A program made the position numbers and the translations under genes. A stretch of 56,043 bases of DNA from positions 1-56,043 of IMG/VR virus record IMGVR_UViG_3300046741_000008; one strand, given 5' to 3'. This document shows positions 3,488 to 33,199 of this stretch, piece after piece; position 1 is the first letter of the stretch; every line of letters begins with the position of its first letter. The notes beneath the pieces were generated by a model. The model was not told the origin of the DNA and did not search any database. It saw only the letters and a list, made by a program, of their open reading frames with translations. This DNA is from a virus.

Positions 3488-3597
3488 TTCTTGATGTTGC
3501 GCCTCATGCGAATGGCGGATAGCATGCGTACCTGGACCGGCCTAGGGGGCACCCGAAAAGGCGACTCACTCCCGCCCTGGCCTGCGTCTCTTCTGGA

Positions 3598-4374
3598 GTG
3601 CCTTTGAGTGAAGGCAGAGTGAACTACTTCGAGCACCACATCGGTGACTACGAGCAGGCAACGTCCCACCTGACAGCTTGCGAGGACGGCATCTACGGCC
3701 GCCTGATCCGCTGGTACATGGCCAGCGAGACACCGATCCCACCAGACCTGAAGGCCGTACAGCGCCGTGTCCGAGCCCGTTCGCGTGACGAGGTCAAGGC
3801 AGTCGAAACCGTGCTGGCCGAGTTCTTCGAGCTGCGCACGGACGGCTGGCATCAGCACCGCTGCGACGAGGAAATCGCACGCTTCAAGGACAAGCAAGCG
3901 AAGGCCAAGCGCAGTGCGGACGCACGTTGGAACGCACACCGTTCGGATAGCGACGGCAATGCGAACGCATCACAGGCAGCAGATGCGGTTGACATGCGAA
4001 CGCATAGCGAAGGCAATGCACCGCGCGCCCGTCCCCAGACACCAGACACCAAGCACCAATCTTCGGATGTAGAACATCCTCAGGTAAAACCCGCATCGAG
4101 ATCAAAAACGCTTGGAGTCGATGACCTCATCGCAGAAGGTGTCGATCCATCCCTCGCAAGGGACTGGGTAGCCGTCAGGAAGGCGAAGAAGGCCGTGCTC
4201 ACGCCCACAGCGTGGGAGGCCGTCAAGCGCGAGGCGGAGGTGGCTGGGCTGACGCCGGCAGAGGCGGTAAAGATCGCTGCTGAGAGTGGCTGGCAGGGGT
4301 TCAAAGCCTCTTGGCTCCAGCGCGACCAGGGCCGCAACGGCGGCCACGACGACATCTTTGCGGGGGCTCGGTGA
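3598..4374 (+). CDS. DUF1376 / YdaU-like replication protein (about 258 aa)
   Basis: Residues near the N-terminus (VNYFEHHIGDYEQATSHLT, then DGIYGRLIRWY) match the DUF1376 domain found in phage replication-initiation proteins such as YdaU. The C-terminal part (LGVDDLIAEGVDPSLARDWV then a lysine-rich helix) resembles the tails of these proteins. Start choices: GTG 3598; TTG 3604, with GGAG five bases upstream; or GTG 3619, which begins at the conserved NYFEHHIGDY block behind GAAGG. The middle (about 95-165) is low-complexity and probably a linker. The helicase gene lies just downstream, so the pair probably acts in origin melting and helicase loading. Confidence 0.8.
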   Translation: MPLSEGRVNYFEHHIGDYEQATSHLTACEDGIYGRLIRWYMASETPIPPDLKAVQRRVRARSRDEVKAVETVLAEFFELRTDGWHQHRCDEEIARFKDKQAKAKRSADARWNAHRSDSDGNANASQAADAVDMRTHSEGNAPRARPQTPDTKHQSSDVEHPQVKPASRSKTLGVDDLIAEGVDPSLARDWVAVRKAKKAVLTPTAWEAVKREAEVAGLTPAEAVKIAAESGWQGFKASWLQRDQGRNGGHDDIFAGAR

Positions 4375-9862: not shown

Positions 9863-10095
9863 ACCGCCTTCTGTTCGCGACCGTGCTGCTGGCCGGCTGC
9901 TCCGAACCCCCGGAGCCGATGGCATGGGAGCGCGCCCAGGTTCTCGCCAAGCGCTGCGAGGCCATGGGCCTGAAGCCGGCCTATCAGCGCATGAACCCTC
10001 TTTCCCTCATCCCGGACAAGTCCGGCGGCGCCATCCGCTGGGTGCAATGCATCGACCCGGCGACAGGCGCCCTCTTCAACCAGAGCCAGGAATGA
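9859..10095 (+). CDS. Predicted small lipoprotein (78 aa)
   Basis: The N-terminus MNRLLFATVLLAGCSEPPEP has a short basic start, a hydrophobic stretch and a lipobox (LLAGC), so Cys14 is the likely lipidated residue after signal peptidase II cleavage. The mature part is about 65 residues with two further cysteines. Lipoproteins among phage genes may act in superinfection exclusion or as an outer spanin. Here it is far from the endolysin, so exclusion is more likely, as inference. Confidence 0.65.
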   Translation: MNRLLFATVLLAGCSEPPEPMAWERAQVLAKRCEAMGLKPAYQRMNPLSLIPDKSGGAIRWVQCIDPATGALFNQSQE

Positions 10096-10772
10096 CAGAC
10101 CGAGCCCCAAAAAAACGCCCAGGCTGGGAGACCGTCTGTTGCATCGCCAGCGGCCCCAGCCTCAACGCCGAGCAGCTGGAGCACGTGCGCAAGGCCCAGC
10201 AGGCCGGCCGCGTGAAGGTCATCGGAGTCAACACGACTTACCAGGCCGCCCCGTGGCTCGACGCGCTGTTCGCATGCGACAGCCAATGGTGGCGCGCATA
10301 CCAGCACGATGGCGCCCACGGCCAGGGCTGGCGCTCGTGGCGAAAGGAACACCCGAACGCCGAGACCGTCACGCAGGACGCCTCGACTTACAAGCAGTTC
10401 GGCCTCGACACGCGACAGCGCGGATCGGCTCGGGACGGGCTCGGAATCGGTGAGCTGCACACAGGGTCCAACGGCGGTCACGCTGCGGTCAACTTGGCAT
10501 TTCTGTGGGGCGCCCGGCGCATCATCCTGCTGGGCTACTGCATGAAGCTCGGGCCGAACGGCGAGAAGCACTTTCATGGCGACCATCCCAAGCCTTGTGT
10601 GCAAAGTCAGTTATTTTCGCAATGGGTTCGCAGATTCGAATCGACCGCAAAGGATTTGAAGAAACTAGGCATTGATGTGGTTAACTGCACTCCTGCGTCA
10701 GCACTTCCATGGTTCAGAAGCGGATTGATTGGCACTGAATTGGAGGCATCAAATGACACCACCGCCGAGTGA
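10092..10772 (+). CDS. MptE-like / DUF115-type putative glycosyltransferase-fold protein (226 aa)
   Basis: ATG at 10092 overlaps the previous stop. The opening block CCIASGPSLNAEQLEHV is the nucleotide-binding-like strand-loop of the DUF115/MptE-like group. Further typical blocks are VIGVNTTYQAAPWLD, FACDSQWWRAY and TGSNGGHAAVNLAFLWGARR with IILLGYCM. Phage members are often annotated as glycosyltransferases, but activity is rarely proven. It is the first gene of the sugar-transfer/methyltransfer cluster. The last 170 bases are clearly richer in A+T than the rest and lie against an HNH gene. Confidence 0.7.
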   Translation: MTDRAPKKRPGWETVCCIASGPSLNAEQLEHVRKAQQAGRVKVIGVNTTYQAAPWLDALFACDSQWWRAYQHDGAHGQGWRSWRKEHPNAETVTQDASTYKQFGLDTRQRGSARDGLGIGELHTGSNGGHAAVNLAFLWGARRIILLGYCMKLGPNGEKHFHGDHPKPCVQSQLFSQWVRRFESTAKDLKKLGIDVVNCTPASALPWFRSGLIGTELEASNDTTAE

Positions 10773-14686: not shown

Positions 14687-15201
14687 AGGTTCACATTGGA
14701 TGCGGCCGGCACGTTCTCGACGGCTGGGTCAACGTCGACACCCAGCGATCGCCCAAGGCCGCCCGCGCTCCGGACGTGATTGGCGACGCGCTGAGTATCC
14801 CGCTTCCTGACGGGTGTGCATCCGAGGTGATGGCCATTCACCTCCTGGAGCACCTCGCGGCCTGGCAGGTACCAAAGGCCCTGGCCGAGTGGCACCGCCT
14901 GCTCAAGCCTGGCGGCCTGCTGGTATTGGAAATGCCGGATGTCGTGAAGTGCGCCAAAAACCTGGTCAAGCTGATCGAGAAGGGCGACGAGAAGACGCTC
15001 AACTCCCAGGCGATGCACGGCCTCTACGGCGATCCCAGCATGGAAGATCCGTGGATGCTTCACCGGTGGGGGTGGACTCCAAAGACCCTGATACCGGTCC
15101 TGAAGCGCGCCGGCTTCGGACTCTTCAAAGAGCGGCCGACGCAGTGGCATGGCATCGGCAAGGCGCACCGGGATTTCCGCATCGAGTCGAGGAAGGTATG
15201 A
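14683..15201 (+). CDS. SAM-dependent methyltransferase (172 aa)
   Basis: ATG at 14683 overlaps the previous stop. The opening MKVHIGCGRHVLDGWVNVD is a typical motif I plus motif II of small class I methyltransferases (GCG loop, then W-x-N-x-D). MAIHLLEHLAAWQVPKALAE and HRLLKPGGLLVLEMPDV match motifs IV and post-IV. The C-terminal MLHRWGWTPKTLIPVLKRAG is common in methyltransferases found with glycosyltransferases. Length is usual for the group. The substrate could be a sugar or a glycan-bearing acceptor; not determinable here. Confidence 0.8.
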   Translation: MKVHIGCGRHVLDGWVNVDTQRSPKAARAPDVIGDALSIPLPDGCASEVMAIHLLEHLAAWQVPKALAEWHRLLKPGGLLVLEMPDVVKCAKNLVKLIEKGDEKTLNSQAMHGLYGDPSMEDPWMLHRWGWTPKTLIPVLKRAGFGLFKERPTQWHGIGKAHRDFRIESRKV

Positions 15202-16330: not shown

Positions 16331-16864
16331 ATGCCGATCCTGAAGAACGCCAAGCACGAGAGATTCGCCCGCGAGTACGTCACAGACCGCAACGGCACAC
16401 AGGCTGCCATCAGGGCCGGTTACTCGAAGCGGAGCGCAGCCGAGCAGGCTTACGATCTCCTCAGGAACCCTCAGATAGCCTCCAGGGTCGATGAACTGAG
16501 CCAGCGCACCCTGCGCCAAGCTGACATCACAGCCGAACGCGTCATGCTGGAACTGGCACGCCTGGCCTTCGCTGACGAGCGCAAGTTGTTCGACGAGAAG
16601 GGCGTGCTCAAGGCCCCTCACACCCTCGACGACGACACCGCAGCCGCTATCTCATCCATGGAGTTCGCTGAACCGGCGAAGGGTAAGAAGCAGGGCGCTG
16701 TGCGCCGCGTGCGCTTGGCGGGTAAGGAAGCCGCTCTACGCATGCTGGCCCAGCGCTTCAAGCTGATCGGCAGCGAGGCGGACGAGGCGCTGAACAACCT
16801 GGCGATGTCCTTCGCCGAGAAGGTTGCAGCGGCCCGCGCACGCCGCAAGGACGAAAGCAAGTAG
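16331..16864 (+). CDS. terS: Terminase small subunit (177 aa)
   Basis: Residues 5-60 (NAKHERFAREYVTDRNGTQA, AIRAGYSKRSAAEQAYDLLR, NPQIASRVDEL) match the N-terminal helix-turn-helix of the Terminase_2 family, which binds the packaging site in the phage genome. The rest is helical and would form the oligomerisation ring. The C-terminal tail is basic (KVAAARARRKDESK). It lies directly upstream of a small gene and TerL, the usual order. Ribosome site GAGGAA precedes the ATG. Confidence 0.9.
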   Translation: MPILKNAKHERFAREYVTDRNGTQAAIRAGYSKRSAAEQAYDLLRNPQIASRVDELSQRTLRQADITAERVMLELARLAFADERKLFDEKGVLKAPHTLDDDTAAAISSMEFAEPAKGKKQGAVRRVRLAGKEAALRMLAQRFKLIGSEADEALNNLAMSFAEKVAAARARRKDESK

Positions 16865-17039: not shown

Positions 17040-17300
17040 ATGAAGCCCACCAAGCCAGGCAACCACCTGATCGACCCGCAGCGCATCCGCGCGCTGGGCA
17101 CCGGCATCGGCCAGAGCCAGCAGCGCAGCAAGACCACCGGCGGCATGCGAGCGCAGAAGGTCGCTGACATGATGACGCCGAAGGTTCGGAGCATCGCCGC
17201 CCCGGGCTACCCGCCCGTCGATCCGATGATGGCCGACATCCGGCAGGACTATCCCGGGCTGGACGCCGCGCTTCCGGTCAACGGCGACGTTCCCTGCTGA
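17040..17300 (+). CDS. Hypothetical protein between TerS and TerL (86 aa)
   Basis: ATG at 17040 is preceded by a strong GGAGG four bases upstream, which fixes the start. An in-frame extension to 16824 would run inside TerS. The 86-residue product (MKPTKPGNHLIDPQRIRALG) is basic at first and proline-rich later (VRSIAAPGYPPVDPMMADIR). It overlaps TerL (TGATG). The 175 bases before it (16865-17039) hold no convincing gene. Function unknown; packaging context. Confidence 0.7.
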   Translation: MKPTKPGNHLIDPQRIRALGTGIGQSQQRSKTTGGMRAQKVADMMTPKVRSIAAPGYPPVDPMMADIRQDYPGLDAALPVNGDVPC

Positions 17301-18838
17301 TGGGAACAGCTGGCGCCCAGGCCAGCGCGCCGATGAGCGAGCGCCAGCAGATTGAGGCCGCGCTCGCGGAGATAGCCGATCGGTTCGTCGAATACGAGTT
17401 CGACCCGCTCGGCTTTGTCATGTGGGCCTTCCCCTGGGGCGTGCCTGGTACTGACCTCGAGGGTGAGGATGGGCCGGAGCAGTGGCAGATCGACCAGCTC
17501 ACCCGCATTGGGGACAAGCTGCGCGCTGGCGCCGACCTCGGGGCGGTGCTCAAAGAGGACATCAGCGCCGGCCACGGCGTCGGCAAGAGCGCCGAGGTTG
17601 CGTGGCTGATCCTCTGGGCCATGTCCCGCGAGGACACCCGAGGCGTCGTGACGGCGACCACGGCCACGCAGCTCAAGACGAAGACCTGGGCCGAGCTGGC
17701 CAAGTGGTATCAGCTCTACGTGGCGAAAGAGCTATTCACGCTCACCACGGAGTCGCTTTACTCGGCTGACCCTGACCACGCCAAGACGTGGCGGATCGAC
17801 GCGGTGCCGTGGTCGGTGTCGAACACCGAGTCGTTCGCCGGCATGCACAACAAGGGCAAGCGCATCCTGCTGATCTTCGACGAGGCCTCAGGCATCGACG
17901 ACAAGATCTGGGAGGTCGCCGAGGGCGCGCTTACCGACGCGAAGACGCAGATCGTCTGGTGCCGCTACGGCAACCCGACGCAGACCACCGGCGAGTTCCA
18001 CAAGCGCTGCACGCGGCCGAAGCCTGGCATCAACGAGTACCACCGGGTCGACAGCCGCACGGTCAGGTTCACGAACAAGAAGCAGATCCAGGCGTGGGTC
18101 GACGAGTACGGCGAGGACAGCGACTTCGTGCGCGTGCGCGTCAAGGGCCAGTTCCCGCGGGCCGGCGCATCCAACTTCATCAGCCCGGAGCTGGTGGAGA
18201 ACGCGCGCCGCCGTCGCGTGCCGCGCATGGCTTGGCAGGCCTATCCCATCATCCTGAGCGTCGACCCGGCTCGCTTCGGCGACGACTGGAGCGTCATCAC
18301 GATACGCCAGGGCCTGAAGGTCCACTACCAGGTGTCGATGTGGGGGTTCGACGGGCCGGAGCTGGCTGGCCGCATCTGGGAGCTGCTCCAGAAGCTGGAG
18401 AACGTTTCGTGCATCGTCTACGACGCCAACGGAAACGGGGCCGACCTCGACAGCGCGCTGAGGCGCATGCCGGGCCTACCGCCGCTCGTGCCGGTGATGT
18501 GGGGCGTGCCGGCCAAGGACGACAAGCAGTATTTCAACCAGCGCAGCGAGTGCTGGGGAAAGATGCGCGACTGGATGAAGGACGGTGAGGTGCCCGACGT
18601 CGACGAGCTGGCCGATGAGCTGACGAGCATGGACTACGGCTACGACGCGCTGTTTCGCATCCAGTTGGTCAGCAAGCAGGACATGAAGCGCGAGGGGAAG
18701 AAGTCGCCCGATCACGCCGACAGCCTGGCGTTGAGCTTCATCCCGGAGCTGATGGATCGCAAGATCGTCTCGGCCAAGGCCAGGCCGGTGCGCAGCCGCA
18801 AAATCGTTTGGTCCGGCAACGGGCTCGGAGTAGGATGA
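17300..18838 (+). CDS. terL: Terminase large subunit (512 aa)
   Basis: This is the DNA-packaging motor. The ATPase domain has Walker A at residues 89-97 (SAGHGVGKS), Walker B at 189-195 (ILLIFDE with Asp194-Glu195), and a coupling region after it. The RNase H-fold nuclease domain shows the first acidic strand at 318-330 (ILSVDPARFGDDW, Asp322), a second at about 372-380 (IVYDANGNG, Asp375) and a late acidic site in PDHADSLALSF (about 475-485). Length is normal for the family. ATG overlaps the preceding stop. The packaging strategy (headful or cos) cannot be told from sequence alone. Confidence 0.95.
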   Translation: MGTAGAQASAPMSERQQIEAALAEIADRFVEYEFDPLGFVMWAFPWGVPGTDLEGEDGPEQWQIDQLTRIGDKLRAGADLGAVLKEDISAGHGVGKSAEVAWLILWAMSREDTRGVVTATTATQLKTKTWAELAKWYQLYVAKELFTLTTESLYSADPDHAKTWRIDAVPWSVSNTESFAGMHNKGKRILLIFDEASGIDDKIWEVAEGALTDAKTQIVWCRYGNPTQTTGEFHKRCTRPKPGINEYHRVDSRTVRFTNKKQIQAWVDEYGEDSDFVRVRVKGQFPRAGASNFISPELVENARRRRVPRMAWQAYPIILSVDPARFGDDWSVITIRQGLKVHYQVSMWGFDGPELAGRIWELLQKLENVSCIVYDANGNGADLDSALRRMPGLPPLVPVMWGVPAKDDKQYFNQRSECWGKMRDWMKDGEVPDVDELADELTSMDYGYDALFRIQLVSKQDMKREGKKSPDHADSLALSFIPELMDRKIVSAKARPVRSRKIVWSGNGLGVG

Positions 18839-18888
18839 CGGCGCAAGTTGCATGGGTGTTCCTCGCGAAGTTGGCCGCAAGGCCTTGG

Positions 18889-18913
18889 CCCCGCCCCGGC
18901 GGGGTTTCCTTTT
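18889..18913 (+). terminator. Rho-independent terminator after TerL
   Basis: CCCCGC pairs with GCGGGG across a four-base loop and is followed by TTTCCTTTT. It lies 51 bases after the TerL stop, in the only gap above 300 bases in the genome (18839-19191). Confidence 0.65.
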
Positions 18914-18957
18914 GGTACGATGGCCGCGCTGGTCATGCTGGGCCGATCGGCGGCGAG

Positions 18958-19048
18958 GATGGTCGAGTGGGTGCGCAACGCCCTGCTGTCCTCGCCGGGG
19001 CCTGGTTGGCTGGCGAAAGGTGACGCTGTCGCCTGGTGTTCGACCATC
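18958..19048 (+). ncRNA. Structured RNA-like element between two terminators
   Basis: GATGGTCGA (18958-18966) is perfectly complementary to TCGACCATC (19040-19048) and would close a 91-base domain, with three more wobble pairs inside. Within it are further short helices: GGGTG with CGCCC (loop CGCAA), and GGCGA with TCGCC. An alternative pairing, GGCGAGGA with TCCTCGCC, also exists. It sits between the TerL terminator and a second terminator at 19066. This could be a small RNA or a processing element. A short frame starting at 18922 crosses it but looks non-coding. Confidence 0.35.
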
Positions 19049-19065
19049 AAAACGGCAGCCCTGAG

Positions 19066-19102
19066 ACCCGCCACGGAGCAATCCAAGGCGGGTTTCTTGT
19101 TT
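19066..19102 (+). terminator. Second terminator upstream of the portal gene
   Basis: ACCCGCC (19066-19072) pairs with GGCGGGT (19087-19093), loop 14 bases, followed by TTCTTGTTT. A further perfect palindrome CCCCGCGCGGGG follows at 19106-19117. The two terminators would isolate the 91-base structured element as its own transcript. Confidence 0.55.
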
Positions 19103-19117
19103 CAGCCCCGCGCGGGG

Positions 19118-19123
19118 CACAAT
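19118..19123 (+). promoter_or_regulatory. Possible -10 element upstream of the portal gene
   Basis: CACAAT lies six bases before an ATG at 19130 that opens a 35-codon frame overlapping the portal start. Since two terminators precede it, some promoter for the portal transcript would be expected here. No good -35 is visible, so this is tentative. Confidence 0.25.
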
Positions 19124-19191
19124 TCACCCATGCAGCAAGTCCTGCGGGGTTCCGTCCAGATGCTGCCCGTTGACAACTCCGGGGCATCTCC

Positions 19192-21435
19192 ATGGCATCA
19201 CCTCTTGTTCGCCAACTTGGCCTTCAGGCCCTTCTGAAGCGCGACGCGGCCGAGCCGCCGGCACCACAGGACATCTCGCAGGACGTGTGGCCAGCCCTGG
19301 CCGGGCACGTGCGGGCAGCCTGGGGCCGCAACAAGCTGGCGAAGCAGCAGGTTGATCTGCACTTGCTCGATTGCCTGCGGGCGCGGCGCGCGGTGTACTC
19401 TCCGGCGCAGATCAGCGTGATCCAGCAGGCCGGCGGCGGGGCGAACATCGTCTTTACCAAGCTGACAGAGACGAAGTGCCGAGCCGGCTCCGCGTGGATC
19501 CGAGACATCGTGCTGCCGGTGGGCGAGCGGCCGTGGGGGCTGGAGCCGACGCCGATCTCTGAGCTGCCCAAAGAGCTGATGGACATGATCGCCAACAAGG
19601 CAGAGCAGCAGGCGCAAGAGGTCATGGTTGCTCAGTACCAGCAGGCCCAGCAGCAGACGCCTGACGGGCAGGTGGTGCCAACGCCGGTGATGAGCCCGCA
19701 GGACTTCAAACAGAAGGTTTTCGAGTTGAAGGACAAGCTGCGCACCGAATGCGAGGCCCGCGTCACGAAGCTGGCCGATATCCGCGCTAAGCGCATGGAG
19801 CGCCAGATCGACGACCGGCTGGCCGAGGGTGGCTGGGCTGAGGCTATGGACGCCTTCGTCGAGGACTTCGTGACCTACCCAGCGGCCATCATGAAGGGGC
19901 CGGTGTACCAGCGAGTGCAAACCCTGACGTGGGAATCCGGCTGGGTGCCTAAGGTCAGCAACGACCCGAAACAGTGCTGGGAGCAGGTCAGCCCGTTCGA
20001 TGTCTACCCGGCGCCGAGCGCCAAGGATGCGCAGAAGGGCGACTTCATCGAGCGCATGCGGCTGTGGCGAAACACGCTGTTCGACCTGAAGGGGCTGCCC
20101 GGCTTCCAGGACGATCAGATCGACAAGGCCCTGCGCGACTACAGCGGCGGCCACCTCGAAGGCTGGCTGTGGACCGAGGCCGAACGCCAGCGCTTGACGC
20201 AGGAATCCATGTACATGTGGCTGAGCCCCCCCGGGGTGATCGACGCCCTGAACTACTGGGGCGCGGTGCCGGGCTGGCAACTGATGTCCTGGGGCGTTGA
20301 GGGCATCGACGAGCCGACTCGGGACTACGAGTGCAATGTGATCCTGATCGGGCGATACGTGGTCTATGCCGCGCTGAACAGCGACCCGCTTAGCGCGCGC
20401 CCGTACCGCAAGGCCTGCTACGACGAGATCCCTGGTGCGTTCTGGGGCTGCTCAGTGCCCGACCTGGCCGGAGACTGCCAGAAGTTTTGCAACGCCATCG
20501 CCCGCGCCATGGCCGACAACCTATCGATGGCCAGCGGCCCACAGGTCTGGGTGCACGCCGACCGCTTCGCCGACGGCGAGAACAGCATCGAGCTGTACCC
20601 GTGGAAGGTCTGGCAGCTCAAGAGCGACCCCACGCAGGGCGTGAACCCCGGCATCGGCTTCTTCCAGCCGCCCGACAACAGCGCCAACCTGAACGCGGCC
20701 TATGAGAAATGGGAGATGCGCGCGGACGATGCGACCGGCATCCCTCGCTACACCTACGGCAACGAGCGCGTCGGGGGTGCTGGGGACACGGCCTCGGGCC
20801 TTGCCATGCTGCTCAACAGCGCCGCCAAGGGCCTGCGCCGGGCTATCAGCAACATCGACATGCACGTCATCGGGCCGAACATCTTCTCGACGTTCGTGAA
20901 CGAGATGCTCTACAACCCGGACGAGAGCATCAAGGGCGACTGCAAGGCTGTTCCACGTGGAGCAGCCGCGATCCTGATCAAGGACAGCGCGCAGCAGCGG
21001 CGCATCCAGTTCCTGGGCATGACGGCCAACCCGATCGACATGCAGATCATCGGCGTCAAGGGCCGGGCCGCGGTGCTGCGCGAGGTGGCCAACAGCATGG
21101 AGCTAGACACCGACGCCATCGTGCCGAGCGAGGAGCAGCTTGAGCAGCAGCAGGAGGCGGCGGCACAAGCTCAGGCCCAGCAGCAGCAGGCGATGATGCA
21201 GGCCGAGGGCGCCAAGATGCAGGCCGAGCAGCAGGGCCAGATGGCGATCGAGCAGCAGAAGATCCAGGGGCAGAAGGAAATCGCCCAGATGAAGGGTGGC
21301 GCTGCCCAGCAGGACGTGATGACGACCCTGATCGCCGACATCGTGAAAGCGAATCTCGCCAGCAAGAGCGGGGCGGAGCAGCCACAGGCGATCATGCCGA
21401 AGACCGGTCTTGAGGTCGCCCGCTCGGCGGTCTGA
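19192..21435 (+). CDS. Portal protein (747 aa)
   Basis: The length and position after TerL, together with the block FQPPDNSANLNAAYEKWEMR, then GIPRYTYGNERVGGAGDTAS and GLAMLLNSAAKGLRRAISNI, identify a podovirus-type portal. The last motif (TASGLxMLxxxA) is a common portal signature. The dodecameric portal forms the DNA channel at one capsid vertex and docks TerL. The C-terminal 110 residues are glutamine-rich coiled coil (runs of Q, A and E from about 643), probably the barrel/crown region. ATG at 19192 has only a weak ribosome site (GGGG eight bases upstream). Confidence 0.9.
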   Translation: MASPLVRQLGLQALLKRDAAEPPAPQDISQDVWPALAGHVRAAWGRNKLAKQQVDLHLLDCLRARRAVYSPAQISVIQQAGGGANIVFTKLTETKCRAGSAWIRDIVLPVGERPWGLEPTPISELPKELMDMIANKAEQQAQEVMVAQYQQAQQQTPDGQVVPTPVMSPQDFKQKVFELKDKLRTECEARVTKLADIRAKRMERQIDDRLAEGGWAEAMDAFVEDFVTYPAAIMKGPVYQRVQTLTWESGWVPKVSNDPKQCWEQVSPFDVYPAPSAKDAQKGDFIERMRLWRNTLFDLKGLPGFQDDQIDKALRDYSGGHLEGWLWTEAERQRLTQESMYMWLSPPGVIDALNYWGAVPGWQLMSWGVEGIDEPTRDYECNVILIGRYVVYAALNSDPLSARPYRKACYDEIPGAFWGCSVPDLAGDCQKFCNAIARAMADNLSMASGPQVWVHADRFADGENSIELYPWKVWQLKSDPTQGVNPGIGFFQPPDNSANLNAAYEKWEMRADDATGIPRYTYGNERVGGAGDTASGLAMLLNSAAKGLRRAISNIDMHVIGPNIFSTFVNEMLYNPDESIKGDCKAVPRGAAAILIKDSAQQRRIQFLGMTANPIDMQIIGVKGRAAVLREVANSMELDTDAIVPSEEQLEQQQEAAAQAQAQQQQAMMQAEGAKMQAEQQGQMAIEQQKIQGQKEIAQMKGGAAQQDVMTTLIADIVKANLASKSGAEQPQAIMPKTGLEVARSAV

Positions 21436-24600: not shown

Positions 24601-24618
24601 GCCGGTTCGCCGCATAAT
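24590..24618 (+). promoter_or_regulatory. Candidate promoter for the scaffold-capsid operon
   Basis: TCGTCA (24590-24595, four of six) is spaced 17 bases from CATAAT (24613-24618, five of six to TATAAT). Seven bases, CGCGCCC, then lead straight to the ATG at 24626, with no ribosome site. Geometry matches the repressor promoter (-10, seven bases ending CCC, ATG). Confidence 0.45.
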
Positions 24619-24625
24619 CGCGCCC

Positions 24626-24925
24626 ATGGGGCAGCAATCATTGACGGAAACCGACCTCGAATTCCTGCGGCGCTTCTCGCGCTCAGGCGAGGGCAGGCTG
24701 TGGATGGAGCTGCTTCAACGCAACCTCGCCGACACGGACAAGCGCTTGCGCTCGACCGTCGGCGATGACCTGTTGAGGCAACAGGGTCGCGCACAGCTCT
24801 TGGCCGAGCTGATCGACCAGGTTGACAAGGCGGAAGAGCCTTTCAAGCGAAAGGACGTGGCGCGGCGCCCCGTTGCGGGGTTCGGCGTCACACCGGGCGA
24901 ACCCTCGTCGTCGTGGCAGGCGTGA
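24626..24925 (+). CDS. Small protein before the scaffold gene (99 aa)
   Basis: ATG at 24626 gives a 99-residue helical protein (MGQQSLTETDLEFLRRFSRS, then WMELLQRNLADTDKRLRS). There is no Shine-Dalgarno, and the start is seven bases from a -10-like box. The position between the fibre and scaffold genes suggests a head-assembly role. Comparable small proteins exist near portal or scaffold genes in other podoviruses, but it is not identified. Confidence 0.65.
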   Translation: MGQQSLTETDLEFLRRFSRSGEGRLWMELLQRNLADTDKRLRSTVGDDLLRQQGRAQLLAELIDQVDKAEEPFKRKDVARRPVAGFGVTPGEPSSSWQA

Positions 24926-24993
24926 GATCGACCGTTCCTACCGACCCGAACCCCAGTGGCATGGGCCTGATGCCTGGATCGTGGAGACACTGA
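24922..24993 (+). CDS. Possible 23-residue peptide
   Basis: GTG at 24922 overlaps the preceding stop (GTGA) and opens a 23-codon frame (MRSTVPTDPNPSGMGLMPGS), ending four bases before the scaffold ATG. It would bridge the two genes by translational coupling. Coding status is uncertain. Confidence 0.35.
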   Translation: MRSTVPTDPNPSGMGLMPGSWRH

Positions 24994-24997
24994 ACAA

Positions 24998-26037: not shown

Positions 26038-26979
26038 ATGGGCGTTCCACGCGCATCAGGTATCCCGGACTATGGTCCCAGCGGTACCGTCAAATTCCTT
26101 CCCGAGGTCTGGTCGGGCAAGCTGGTCGAGAAGTTCTACAAGACCACGGTCTTCGGTGAAATCGCCAGCACCGACTACGAGGGCGAGATCGCCGGCTTCG
26201 GCGCGAACGTGATCATCCGGACCATTCCGGACATCACGGTCAGCGACTACGTGATCGGCGAGGGGCTGACGCCTCAATACCCGTCGCGAAACTCGGTGAC
26301 GCTGTCGATCGACAAGGCCAAGTCGTTCAACGTGGCGCTGAACACGGTGGATAGCCGTCAATCGGACCTGGACCTCGCGGACGTGTTCGCGAACGACGGT
26401 TCGATGCAGCTGCGCATCGCGGCCGACGCCGACATGCTGGAGACGATCCCGGCGGATGTCAGTGCGGACAACAGCGGCTCCACCGCTGGCGCTGACTCCA
26501 ACGACATCGACCTCGGCACTGCCGCGTCTCCGCGTGCCATCTCGGCCGCCAACGCCGTCGAACTGTTCACTGACATGGGTCAGGTGCTGGACGAGCAGAG
26601 CGTCAGCGACGAAGGCCGTTGGACGGTGATCCCGCCGTGGCTGACCAACCTGATCAAGAACAGCGAGCTGAAGATTGCCAGCCTGGCCGGCGACGGGGTT
26701 TCGATCCTGCGCAATGGCAAGGTTGGCGAGATCGACCGCTTCACGATCTACCAGTCGCGCAACATCCTGCGCCAGACGAGCCCGGCCGTGGCGTCCTACG
26801 TCATGTTCGGTCACTCGGCCGGCCTGACGTTCGCGGCGCAGATCGTCGAGTGCCAGATGATCGACAACCCGAGCGACTTCGGTTACCTCATCCGTGGCCT
26901 GATGGTCTACGGCTTCGAGGTGATCGAGCCGTCGTACGTCGGCACCGCTGTCGTCGCCAAGGCACCGGCCTCGCCGTAA
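26038..26979 (+). CDS. Major capsid protein (313 aa)
   Basis: It follows the scaffold gene and has a strong ribosome site (AGGAG). Features typical of HK97-fold capsid proteins of this group are a short N-arm, the block WSGKLVEKFYKTTVFGEIAS, beta-rich GANVIIRTIPDITVSDYVIG, and a C-terminal domain with YVMFGHSAGLTFAAQIVECQ and YLIRGLMVYGFEVIEP. Length is normal. No delta-domain protease is present nearby, fitting scaffold-dependent assembly. Confidence 0.85.
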   Translation: MGVPRASGIPDYGPSGTVKFLPEVWSGKLVEKFYKTTVFGEIASTDYEGEIAGFGANVIIRTIPDITVSDYVIGEGLTPQYPSRNSVTLSIDKAKSFNVALNTVDSRQSDLDLADVFANDGSMQLRIAADADMLETIPADVSADNSGSTAGADSNDIDLGTAASPRAISAANAVELFTDMGQVLDEQSVSDEGRWTVIPPWLTNLIKNSELKIASLAGDGVSILRNGKVGEIDRFTIYQSRNILRQTSPAVASYVMFGHSAGLTFAAQIVECQMIDNPSDFGYLIRGLMVYGFEVIEPSYVGTAVVAKAPASP

Positions 26980-27817: not shown

Positions 27818-28447
27818 GTGACCAGCGCGTCGACCATCCTCGGCCAGGCCCGGGAAACGCTCATCGATGCCGATGCGACCACCTGGTCGGAGGCTGAACT
27901 GCTGGGCTACCTGCGCATGGCCGTGCACAAGGCGTGCGCGCTGCTGCTGGACCTCTACGTGACGGTCGTCGATCACCCGCTCGATGCGGGCCTGCGCCAG
28001 TACCTTCCTGAGGGTGGGTTGGTGCTGATCGACGCCCCGACGAACGGCGATGGCGGCCCGGTCACCCAGCAGGCTCTGACCGAGCTGCAGCGCATTCAGC
28101 GCGAGTGGGGCGCGGCGACACCCGGGCAGCCGGCTTTCTTCGTGTACGACAAGCGGTCTCCGCTCACCTTTCAGGTCTTCCCGCCGGCCTCGTCCGGAGC
28201 GTCGCTTGAGCTGGTGATCGGCGCGCTGCCGCCCGAGTTCACGTCGAGCGAAGAGATCCCCATCTCGCCCTGGTTCGACACCGCCCTCTGGGCCTTCGTG
28301 GTTGGCATGGCGCTGGCCAAGAACACCACCCGGCAGGATCTGACCAAGACGGCGACCTTCATGGGTGTGTTTAATGCCGACATGGCTGCCTGGAAGGCGA
28401 CCAAGGACGCGACGGTCAGCCCGCCCGACAGACAAGGGGTGCACTGA
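27818..28447 (+). CDS. Head-tail adaptor-like protein 1 (209 aa)
   Basis: The helical N-terminus TILGQARETLIDADATTWSE, with AELLGYLRMAVHKACALLLD, and the block FFVYDKRSPLTFQVFPPASS resemble the SU10-type adaptor (DUF6682-like) family, in which an N-terminal helix pair binds the portal and a small beta domain faces the tail. It is followed by a related gene at 28447. The GTG start at 27818 sits just after the previous stop. Confidence 0.65.
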   Translation: MTSASTILGQARETLIDADATTWSEAELLGYLRMAVHKACALLLDLYVTVVDHPLDAGLRQYLPEGGLVLIDAPTNGDGGPVTQQALTELQRIQREWGAATPGQPAFFVYDKRSPLTFQVFPPASSGASLELVIGALPPEFTSSEEIPISPWFDTALWAFVVGMALAKNTTRQDLTKTATFMGVFNADMAAWKATKDATVSPPDRQGVH

Positions 28448-30403: not shown

Positions 30404-33199
30404 ATGCGAGTAGCCCACGAGAGTTTCCGCGGCATGGTGCCGCTGCTTAGCCCCCGGGCGCTGCCTGACAACGGCGCGCAGGTGGCGCTGAACGCGAACA
30501 TGAAGTCGGGCGATCTCGAAGCCTGGATGCGCCCGCTGCTGTCGAAGCAACTGGCCACTCTGGGGTCAGGCCCCGTCGAGACGATCTTCAAGCTGGGCGC
30601 CGACTGGCTGAGTTTCGAGCAGCGTGTCGAGGTGGCCCGTGGGGCGATCCTGGGCGACACCACGAAGCGGACCTACATCACCGGCCTGGAGGGTCTGGGT
30701 CCACGCTGGACGAACGTCGAGCTCGCCACCACAGGTTCGGAGCCATTCCCCGTCGAGACGCGCCCGCTGGGTGTGCCTGCGCCGGAAGTGGCGCCCGAGG
30801 TCGAGGTGAACCCACCTGCGGTCGTCACAGGCGATGTGCCGGTCCAGAACCCTGGCGCCGAGGATGGCGCGCTCGACTGGACATCGCCGACCGGGCTCAC
30901 GCTCGAAGACCACGACAACAGCTCGATCCCTGGCTTCCTGGCCTACGCCGGCACGCACTACTGGTTCGGCGGTGATAACCCGAGCCTGGAGGCCTACCAG
31001 GACATCGACCTGTCGTCGAACGACATCACCGCCGGGCAGACGCTGGCGCTGTTCTGGCAGCAGGCCGCGAACGCTGACGGCGGCAAGGCCGGCCTGGCGC
31101 TGCAGTTCCTGGACGCCGACGACGTCGAGATCCCGGGCACCGAGGTCGCATCCGAGGTCATGACGATCACGCCCATCCTCACCTGGACCGAGCGCAGCAT
31201 CGTGGCCACCGTGCCGGCGGACGCGGTCAGCGTGCGGATCATGCAGACCTACGTGCGCGACGGTGGTGTAGAGCTCGACGCCTTCGTTGACGCGATCCGT
31301 CTGGACCTGCAGAAATACTCACTGAGCTGGGACGGCTCGAGTCTCACCGGATGGACGGTCAGCAGCAACGGGGGGCCGAGCGAGAACCGCTCCAAGTTCC
31401 TGACGATCGATGACACCTTCGGGCAGCCGCCGCCGTCCTTCAAGTTCGACATGGACAGCCGCGTGCCGTTCATGTACCAGAACCTGAAGACCGATGAGGC
31501 GCCCGCGGTGACCGTGGTCTACGACGTCTACTTCAAGCAGCGCAGCGAGGTCTCGCTGTTCGCCTCCAGCACCGGGGCCCGTATCGCCTTCGCCATGTCC
31601 ATCGAAGAGGGGACGGCGATCGAGTACTTCTCGACGTGGGAATCGGCCGGCGACGGCATCACCAAGGAAACGCTGGACGGCGACCTGAAGCCTTCGAGCA
31701 CGTGGCTGACGGTCACCCTGTCGGCGCAGATCAAGTCCCCCACGCTGGCGCGCGTGACCTGCACGGTGGTCGAGAAGGCGACGGGCCTGATCCTGCTGCC
31801 GGCGACGACGGTCGACTGGACGATCGATGGCGGGAACCTAGCGTTCGCCGCCTACGCGACCAGCCGCTCGCGGACCTGCCACTACGACAACATCCGGGTC
31901 CAGATCAGCCCGCCGGTGAGCGACACCGACAACGTCATCGTCTACACGACCTACGTCTACACGTTCGTCAACGACATCGACGAGGAGAGCGCGCCAAGCG
32001 ACCCCAGCGAGACGGTGCAGCGCAACATCAACAGCTCGGTGGTGGTCACCATGCCAACCTCGGTTCCGACCGGGCTGGACGACTACCACATCGAGAAAAA
32101 GCGGCTCTACCGGGCCGTCACCGGCTCGACGGGCACGGTCTTCCGCTTCGTGGCTGAGCTGGACCTCGCGACCGAGGAGTTCGTCGACAACCTGCCCGAC
32201 GAGGAGCTGGGTGAGGTGCTGGAGACAGAAGGGTGGGATCTGCCGCCGTTCGACCTGCGCAATATCCTGGCGCTGCCGAACGGCATCATGGTCGGGTCCG
32301 CCGGCAATCAGCTCTGCTTCAGCGTCAGCGGTCACCCGCACGCGTGGCCGATCACCTACCGGCTGCCGACCGACACCGATATCGTGGCCTTGGGCAACGT
32401 AGACACCACCGTTTTCCTTGGCACCCAGAGTTTCGTCTACACCGCGAGCGGCAACAGCCCGGACGCCTACTCGATGAGCAAGCCGGGCTCGCCGCACTCC
32501 TGCACGTCCAGGCGTTCCCTGGGCTACCTGACCGGCATCGGCGTCGTGTTCGCCGGTCCGGACGGCCTCATGGTGTCCGCCGGCGCGACGCGGGTCGAGA
32601 ACATGACGGCCAACATCTTCACGCGCGAGCAGTGGCAGGCCCTGGATCCGACATCGATCCTCGGCGTCGCCCACGATGAGACCTACTACTTCTTCTACGA
32701 CGACGGCGTCACGAAGGGCGGCTATGCCCTGGAGCCGGGACCGACAGGCTTCGGCCTGATCTCGCTTGGCATGCACGCCTGCGCTGTCTACGCCGACCCG
32801 ATCGAGGACAAGCTGTATCTGGTGCTCGACGAGTACGAGGAGCCCACCGACGAGTTGCTGCCCGAGCAGACCGGGGTAACGCCGATCGAGCCGGACGGGA
32901 CGGCCATTTACATCTGGAACGGCGACAGCGTGGCGATGAACTACCGCTGGCTCGGCAAGCTGTGGCTGTTACCGCTCGAAGCTGCGTTCCAGCAAGCCAA
33001 GGTGAAGGCGGCCGACTACGATGCGTTGGTGCTGCGCCTGTACCGAGATGGCACGTTGCTGATGGAAAAGCGTATCACCAGCAAGGATGGGTTCACGCTG
33101 CCGATGGTTGAGGCCTACGATGCCTTCGAGATGGAGCTGATCGGCACCAGCCGGGTCCGCACCGTCCAGGCGGTCGAGCAGGTCGAGGAGATCCGCTGA
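30404..33199 (+). CDS. Large tail protein, nozzle/hub-like (931 aa)
   Basis: The N-terminus (MRVAHESFRGMVPLLSPRAL with WMRPLLSKQLATLG), the block GLGPRWTNVELATTGSEPFP and the C-terminal YNYR/W-type region (GDSVAMNYRWLGKLWLLPLE, AAFQQAKVKAADYDALVLRL) match the large nozzle-like proteins of short-tailed phages. Residues about 145-500 contain inserted beta domains (GAEDGALDWTSPTGLTLEDH; LSWDGSSLTGWTVSSNGG) that may bind carbohydrate. It probably forms the tail tip through which DNA passes. Names such as gp10-like are by analogy. Confidence 0.65.
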   Translation: MRVAHESFRGMVPLLSPRALPDNGAQVALNANMKSGDLEAWMRPLLSKQLATLGSGPVETIFKLGADWLSFEQRVEVARGAILGDTTKRTYITGLEGLGPRWTNVELATTGSEPFPVETRPLGVPAPEVAPEVEVNPPAVVTGDVPVQNPGAEDGALDWTSPTGLTLEDHDNSSIPGFLAYAGTHYWFGGDNPSLEAYQDIDLSSNDITAGQTLALFWQQAANADGGKAGLALQFLDADDVEIPGTEVASEVMTITPILTWTERSIVATVPADAVSVRIMQTYVRDGGVELDAFVDAIRLDLQKYSLSWDGSSLTGWTVSSNGGPSENRSKFLTIDDTFGQPPPSFKFDMDSRVPFMYQNLKTDEAPAVTVVYDVYFKQRSEVSLFASSTGARIAFAMSIEEGTAIEYFSTWESAGDGITKETLDGDLKPSSTWLTVTLSAQIKSPTLARVTCTVVEKATGLILLPATTVDWTIDGGNLAFAAYATSRSRTCHYDNIRVQISPPVSDTDNVIVYTTYVYTFVNDIDEESAPSDPSETVQRNINSSVVVTMPTSVPTGLDDYHIEKKRLYRAVTGSTGTVFRFVAELDLATEEFVDNLPDEELGEVLETEGWDLPPFDLRNILALPNGIMVGSAGNQLCFSVSGHPHAWPITYRLPTDTDIVALGNVDTTVFLGTQSFVYTASGNSPDAYSMSKPGSPHSCTSRRSLGYLTGIGVVFAGPDGLMVSAGATRVENMTANIFTREQWQALDPTSILGVAHDETYYFFYDDGVTKGGYALEPGPTGFGLISLGMHACAVYADPIEDKLYLVLDEYEEPTDELLPEQTGVTPIEPDGTAIYIWNGDSVAMNYRWLGKLWLLPLEAAFQQAKVKAADYDALVLRLYRDGTLLMEKRITSKDGFTLPMVEAYDAFEMELIGTSRVRTVQAVEQVEEIR

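Follow-up and report, generated by a model that had tools for sequence, protein, structure and literature searches.

A putative self-contained non-coding RNA unit between the terminase and portal genes of a podovirus-like phage

The late genes of phage lambda are preceded by the promoter pR', a structured leader of less than 200 nt (the 6S RNA) and the terminator tR', and in phage T7 the polycistronic late transcript is processed at RNase III sites. Phage moron sites are also already known to harbour small RNAs: in lambdoid prophages these lie at a moron insertion site below PR', combine conserved 3' with variable 5' parts, and are Hfq-bound, Northern-proven RNAs of 51-60 nt that act as anti-sRNAs (PMC4104026). 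The locus described here resembles the lambdoid units in being a short, apparently non-coding unit with conserved and variable parts, placed in a cargo-accepting slot near the late operon, but it differs from them in its predicted length of about 170 nt, its rod-like form, its position between terL and portal, and in being known from sequence alone.

The window, by which we mean the whole 56,043-base stretch of virus DNA that was analysed, represents a podovirus-like phage; portal comparison, at 34% identity or less, places it nearest, among named phages, to Rhizobium phages of about 61 kb and to Roseobacter, Pelagibacter and HMO-2011-type phages. Comparison with PHROGs places TerS at 16331-16864, the major head protein at 26038-26979 and an internal virion protein at 30404-33199. 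The gap at 18839-19191 to which the first-pass annotation had drawn attention is real, and sits exactly between the genes for TerL (17300-18838, + strand; phrog_2, E 9e-36) and portal (19192-21435, + strand; phrog_332 head-tail adaptor, E 3e-48, and phrog_1216 portal, E 1e-11). Its description as the only large gap of the genome holds roughly for the late region, where a gap at 24601-24997 is occupied by a 99-aa ORF (24626-24925, + strand) behind its own GCATAAT box, but not for the early part of the record, where other stretches, too, lack a well-scoring ORF.

The terL side of the gap is closed by a terminator (T1, 18888-18913, + strand) consisting of a stem at 18888-18905, GCCCCGCCCCGGCGGGGT, and a T-rich tail. 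Directly after this tail lies P1 (18913-18921, + strand), a promoter-like box, TGGTACGAT, that forms a perfect extended -10 with no -35. It is followed by a rod-like hairpin (18927-19015, + strand) made up of a 17-bp basal stem with a 1-nt bulge, an asymmetric internal loop, a 13-bp stem and an apical 5-bp hairpin, and then by a 3' hairpin (19025-19059, + strand; GCTGTCG...CGGCAGC) with an inner TGGTG/CATCA stem and the loop TTCGAC. The second terminator (T2, 19063-19102, + strand), with a stem at 19063-19096, GAGACCCGCC...GGCGGGTTTC, and then TTGTTT, would provide the 3' end of the predicted RNA; terminators on both sides of the element, as previously annotated, are thus present. Upstream of portal lies P2 (19117-19123, + strand), a -10-like box, GCACAAT, that is conserved in relatives.

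An ATG at 19130, just past P2, opens a 35-codon ORF (19130-19237, + strand) that is out of frame with portal, and in some relatives, such as L028, the ATG that follows P2 shares the reading frame of portal and lengthens the portal N-terminus. On the + strand of the window GCAYAAT is found only at 19117-19123 and at 24612, where GCATAAT just precedes the ATG (24626) of the 99-aa ORF in the layout of a near-leaderless promoter, as upstream of portal in relatives. The motif TGNTANNNT has only three copies on the + strand of the record.

The element can be compared with its counterpart in IMGVR_UViG_3300004463_000049 (L022), whose TerL and portal match those of the window at 81% and 71% by protein. 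In L022, too, a terminator precedes the unit, TGTTAGGAT stands at the place of P1, and both P1 and T2 are kept, such that by sequence the unit has its own promoter and its own terminator. Aligned identity over the element is 76%, the same as in the flanking genes (76-79% by DNA, with 21-24% of bases differing), and is distributed in blocks that correspond to the rod's basal stem, to the 3' hairpin and to the ends of T2, with identical runs of 32, 21, 17 and 15 nt. The basal stem is nearly invariant, and the 3' hairpin nearly identical. Over the rod, 3' hairpin and T2 of the two sequences, 96% of cells are paired (RNAalifold and explicit pair count), and seven pairs are changed on both sides: four in T2, where no pair is broken, two in the 13-bp stem of the rod, and one at the apex, which is doubtful, the alignment being poor there; the apical hairpins themselves differ (CTGC-GATC-GCAG in L022 versus GGGTG-CGCAA-CGCCC in the window). 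A count as high as seven was reached by 4 of 500 shuffles, and slid versions gave 0-1. This covariation rests on two sequences because L022 holds the single homologous element found in the collections searched, and it does not test the basal stem or the 3' hairpin, in which there is hardly any variation; within those bounds the fold of rod, 3' hairpin and T2 appears to be conserved, with good but limited support.

The 9-base inverted repeat on which the first-pass annotation had built its structured domain (18958-19048, + strand; GATGGTCGA/TCGACCATC) fares less well. A perfect copy does pair 18958-18966 with 19040-19048, but the 91-base domain that it would close is not the preferred fold, and the minimum-energy structure pairs the 5' arm elsewhere, CGGCGAGGA (18951-18959) with TCCTCGCCG (18989-18997), inside the stronger rod. 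Taken alone, the frequency of the repeat lies within chance expectation: the record has 65 such inverted 9-mer pairs within 140 nt, equivalent to 0.41 per 353 nt, the number expected in 353 bases is 0.36-0.41, and 23% of shuffled gaps contain at least one. The presence of three 9-mer matches in the gap is mildly high (P 0.024), with competing helices among them. In L022 the 5' arm carries four changes, against none in the 3' arm; seven of the nine pairs are kept (two of them as G-U), two are broken and none is changed on both sides, and the domain is not conserved as a helix. Although the closing helix therefore fails as a basis for it, the suggestion that a small RNA or regulatory element lies between the terminators gains support from the promoter-like box ahead, the conserved terminator behind, the two-sided changes of both rod and T2, and the recurrence of comparable units at the same slot in relatives.

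The element appears to be non-coding in the two sequences compared. None of its ORFs was seen to have a plausible ribosome site, and a conserved protein is disfavoured because the rod and terminator covary while a 2-nt gap shifts the reading frames of the window and L022 elements. We considered and rejected a protein-coding reading of the ORFs at 18848-19237 and 18852-19064, the frames of which are not kept in L022. We likewise rejected an HDV-like nested pseudoknot, composed of CGGCGAGGA/TCCTCGCCG and GATGGTCGA/TCGACCATC in an HDV-like order, the second helix of which is unconserved; at E up to 5 Rfam gave a single match, to anti-hemB around T1, which is attributable to chance.

Portal and TerL searches provided 66 distinct terL-portal gaps. 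The slot is hypervariable among about 60 relatives, with gaps between 41 bases and 2 kb in length, for the most part unalignable. It contains HNH endonucleases, tRNA-Pro and tRNA-Met, the usual cargo of phage accessory sites, together with promoter/short-RNA/terminator units (in L004, L028/L140, L029, L034/L127/L048, L049/L118 and L050/L053) that differ in sequence and fold and show a few two-sided changes in related pairs; unlike accessory slots with tRNA genes or HNH endonucleases, the window carries a cargo that is neither a tRNA nor, apparently, protein-coding. L002, whose distance from the window is similar to that of L022 (TerL 82%, portal 79%), has only some tens of bases and a GCACAAT box between the point where TerL homology stops and portal, and the whole RNA element is absent. 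It is an empty site (terL - GCACAAT - portal); at this fixed position the element is present in the window and L022 and absent from L002.

Box counts in the gaps of 58 relatives are descriptive, the patterns having been chosen after the gaps were inspected and some relatives being close kin: GCAYAAT occurs 39 times versus 2.3 +- 1.6 in shuffles, frequently with an ATG about 10 nt downstream, and TGNTANNNT occurs 19 times versus 5.6 +- 2.3. An extended -10 is followed by a terminator 50-220 nt further on in 9 of the 58 gaps, whereas 100 shuffled sets averaged 0.09 and never exceeded 1, an expectation that overstates the promoter-terminator linkage because the patterns were picked post hoc and the shuffles remove both signals together.

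Among the relatives' units, the short predicted gap RNAs of L034 (from 3711), L127 (from 811) and L048 (from 6250) have a covarying 5' hairpin. A segment conserved in L034 and L127, TTCCATGGTTTGNCTCCTTG, of which L048 has the variant TTCATGGTGAGTCTCCTTG, complements a ribosome-binding site and start codon, and no target for it was found in those phages' own genomes. The gaps of L049 and L118 contain, on the minus strand, short ORFs (18-19 codons) that have a strong ribosome site and end in similar C-termini, ATALVLPV and ATALALPV; these face the putative small RNA, with which they could be an antisense pair.

We consider it reasonably probable that the gap holds an 'RNA moron', a non-coding transcription unit that is accessory and self-contained, acts in trans and is insulated between terL and portal. 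T1 would stop transcription arriving from terL, and P1 would start an RNA at about 18928 that folds as the long rod and the 3' hairpin and ends at T2, after which P2 would restart transcription for portal and the structural genes. Such an RNA would be dispensable for the phage lineage and would most likely act on host or phage RNA or protein; its working part may be the invariant basal stem and the 3' domain, with the apex as a tolerated structural extension. The anatomy, the fold backed by two-sided changes, the recurrent units in relatives and the empty site are what the sequences themselves show. The element is likely to be transcribed; trans action and the existence of a target are what we infer, because of the accessory nature of the unit and the lambdoid precedent (PMC4104026). 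Its absence from a close relative suggests that the unit is optional RNA cargo, open to gain, loss or exchange by the phage. A broader version, in which the terL-portal junction would be a dedicated RNA bay whose conserved promoter/terminator frame receives unrelated small RNAs swapped between lineages and each tuned to a different host, is conceivable but doubtful; host tuning is suggested by the anti-RBS-like segments in the L034, L127 and L048 units.

The same arrangement could serve as transcription punctuation without a functional RNA, a leader from P1 halting at T2 and continuing into portal once read-through or a late antiterminator allowed it, although we think this unlikely. The order of promoter, structured leader of less than 200 nt, terminator and late structural genes is that of the lambda pR'-tR' region, and the sequence of the body varies by lineage while promoter and terminator recur. 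Unlike the lambda region, however, the window has a second, conserved promoter box past T2, and portal expression therefore needs no read-through. Moreover, the Q-type antiterminator family (PF06530) is absent in 11 of these phages, including the window, in a search for which control genomes were positive, and the two-sided changes of the rod go beyond the needs of a mere leader. A search for the single-subunit phage RNA polymerase (PF00940) gave no match, and says little, as the positive control was also silent.

A decayed or neutral insertion, in which remnants of former cargo, leftover terminators and a chance fold in GC-rich DNA make up the gap, is improbable. It would accord with the hypervariability of the slot and with folding energies that are just modestly low (z of -2.6 for 18927-19060 and -3.0 for the 91-nt domain in the window, and -1.7 for the element body in L022); among 1645 windows across the record, ranked after composition regression, those starting at 19007 and 19041 are second and fourth, largely owing to T2. 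It accords poorly with long identical runs in non-coding DNA set against the divergence of the flanking genes, and with the two-sided changes. Processing of a polycistronic late transcript by RNase III at the rod, after the example of T7, we hold to be very improbable: there are two long intergenic stems split by an asymmetric internal loop, but a terminator follows within about 50 nt, such that a long transcript must read through T2, and L002 lives without the rod, as other relatives do without a comparable one. A packaging site or a packaging RNA, the latter also offered by the first-pass annotation, is scarcely credible, because phi29-type pRNA is a required, motor-conserved partner, whereas close relatives such as L002 lack the whole element and most others hold unrelated cargo despite homologous TerL and portal, Rfam gives no match, and placement between terminase and portal is all that speaks for it.

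Exact-block scans of viral contigs returned L022's contig and chance matches only, and a covariance search of 71 loci placed just the two training sequences above noise. Short chance matches only were obtained from 300 genomes belonging to the same order as one host-side relative, a Burkholderiales MAG; annotated phage records share gap DNA over 28 nt at most, and plasmids gave none. No Rfam covariance model reached its gathering score in the gap or in the loci of 17 relatives. Antisense comparison with the phage's own genome gave a longest match of 13 nt and no convincing target, and none was clear at the gene starts of relatives. The start of the structural gene at 27818 (27818-27842, + strand) is complementary to two parts of the element, over adjacent stretches of 11 and 13 nt; we judge these matches to be chance, because their order is wrong for one continuous duplex, and have rejected this gene as an antisense target.

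We found no description of the element sequence or of the terL-portal slot in the literature searched, and the interest of the element, which we rate as moderate, lies mainly in the recurrent slot. If transcribed, it would be an undescribed phage RNA, and the fixed address between terL and portal would allow small RNAs to be gathered by synteny from uncultivated podovirus-like phages, even though these RNAs have no sequence in common. The address would thus give a route to phage regulatory RNAs that similarity searches miss.

Three further features of the record lie outside the gap. An ARAGORN tRNA-Gly call at 14875-14963 (minus strand) is probably false, because it is antisense to a + strand frame, reading HLLEHLAAWQVPKALAEWHRLLKPGGLLVLEMPD, that resembles a methyltransferase. 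The ORF at 9924-10772 (+ strand) matches a PHROG alpha-2,3-sialyltransferase (E 1e-38), an unusual cargo in a podovirus-like phage. Positions 3535-3600 (+ strand) match the Rfam int-alpA RNA (RF02996) at 37.4 bits (gathering score 35.8) and would be a second non-coding RNA of the record, of known type.
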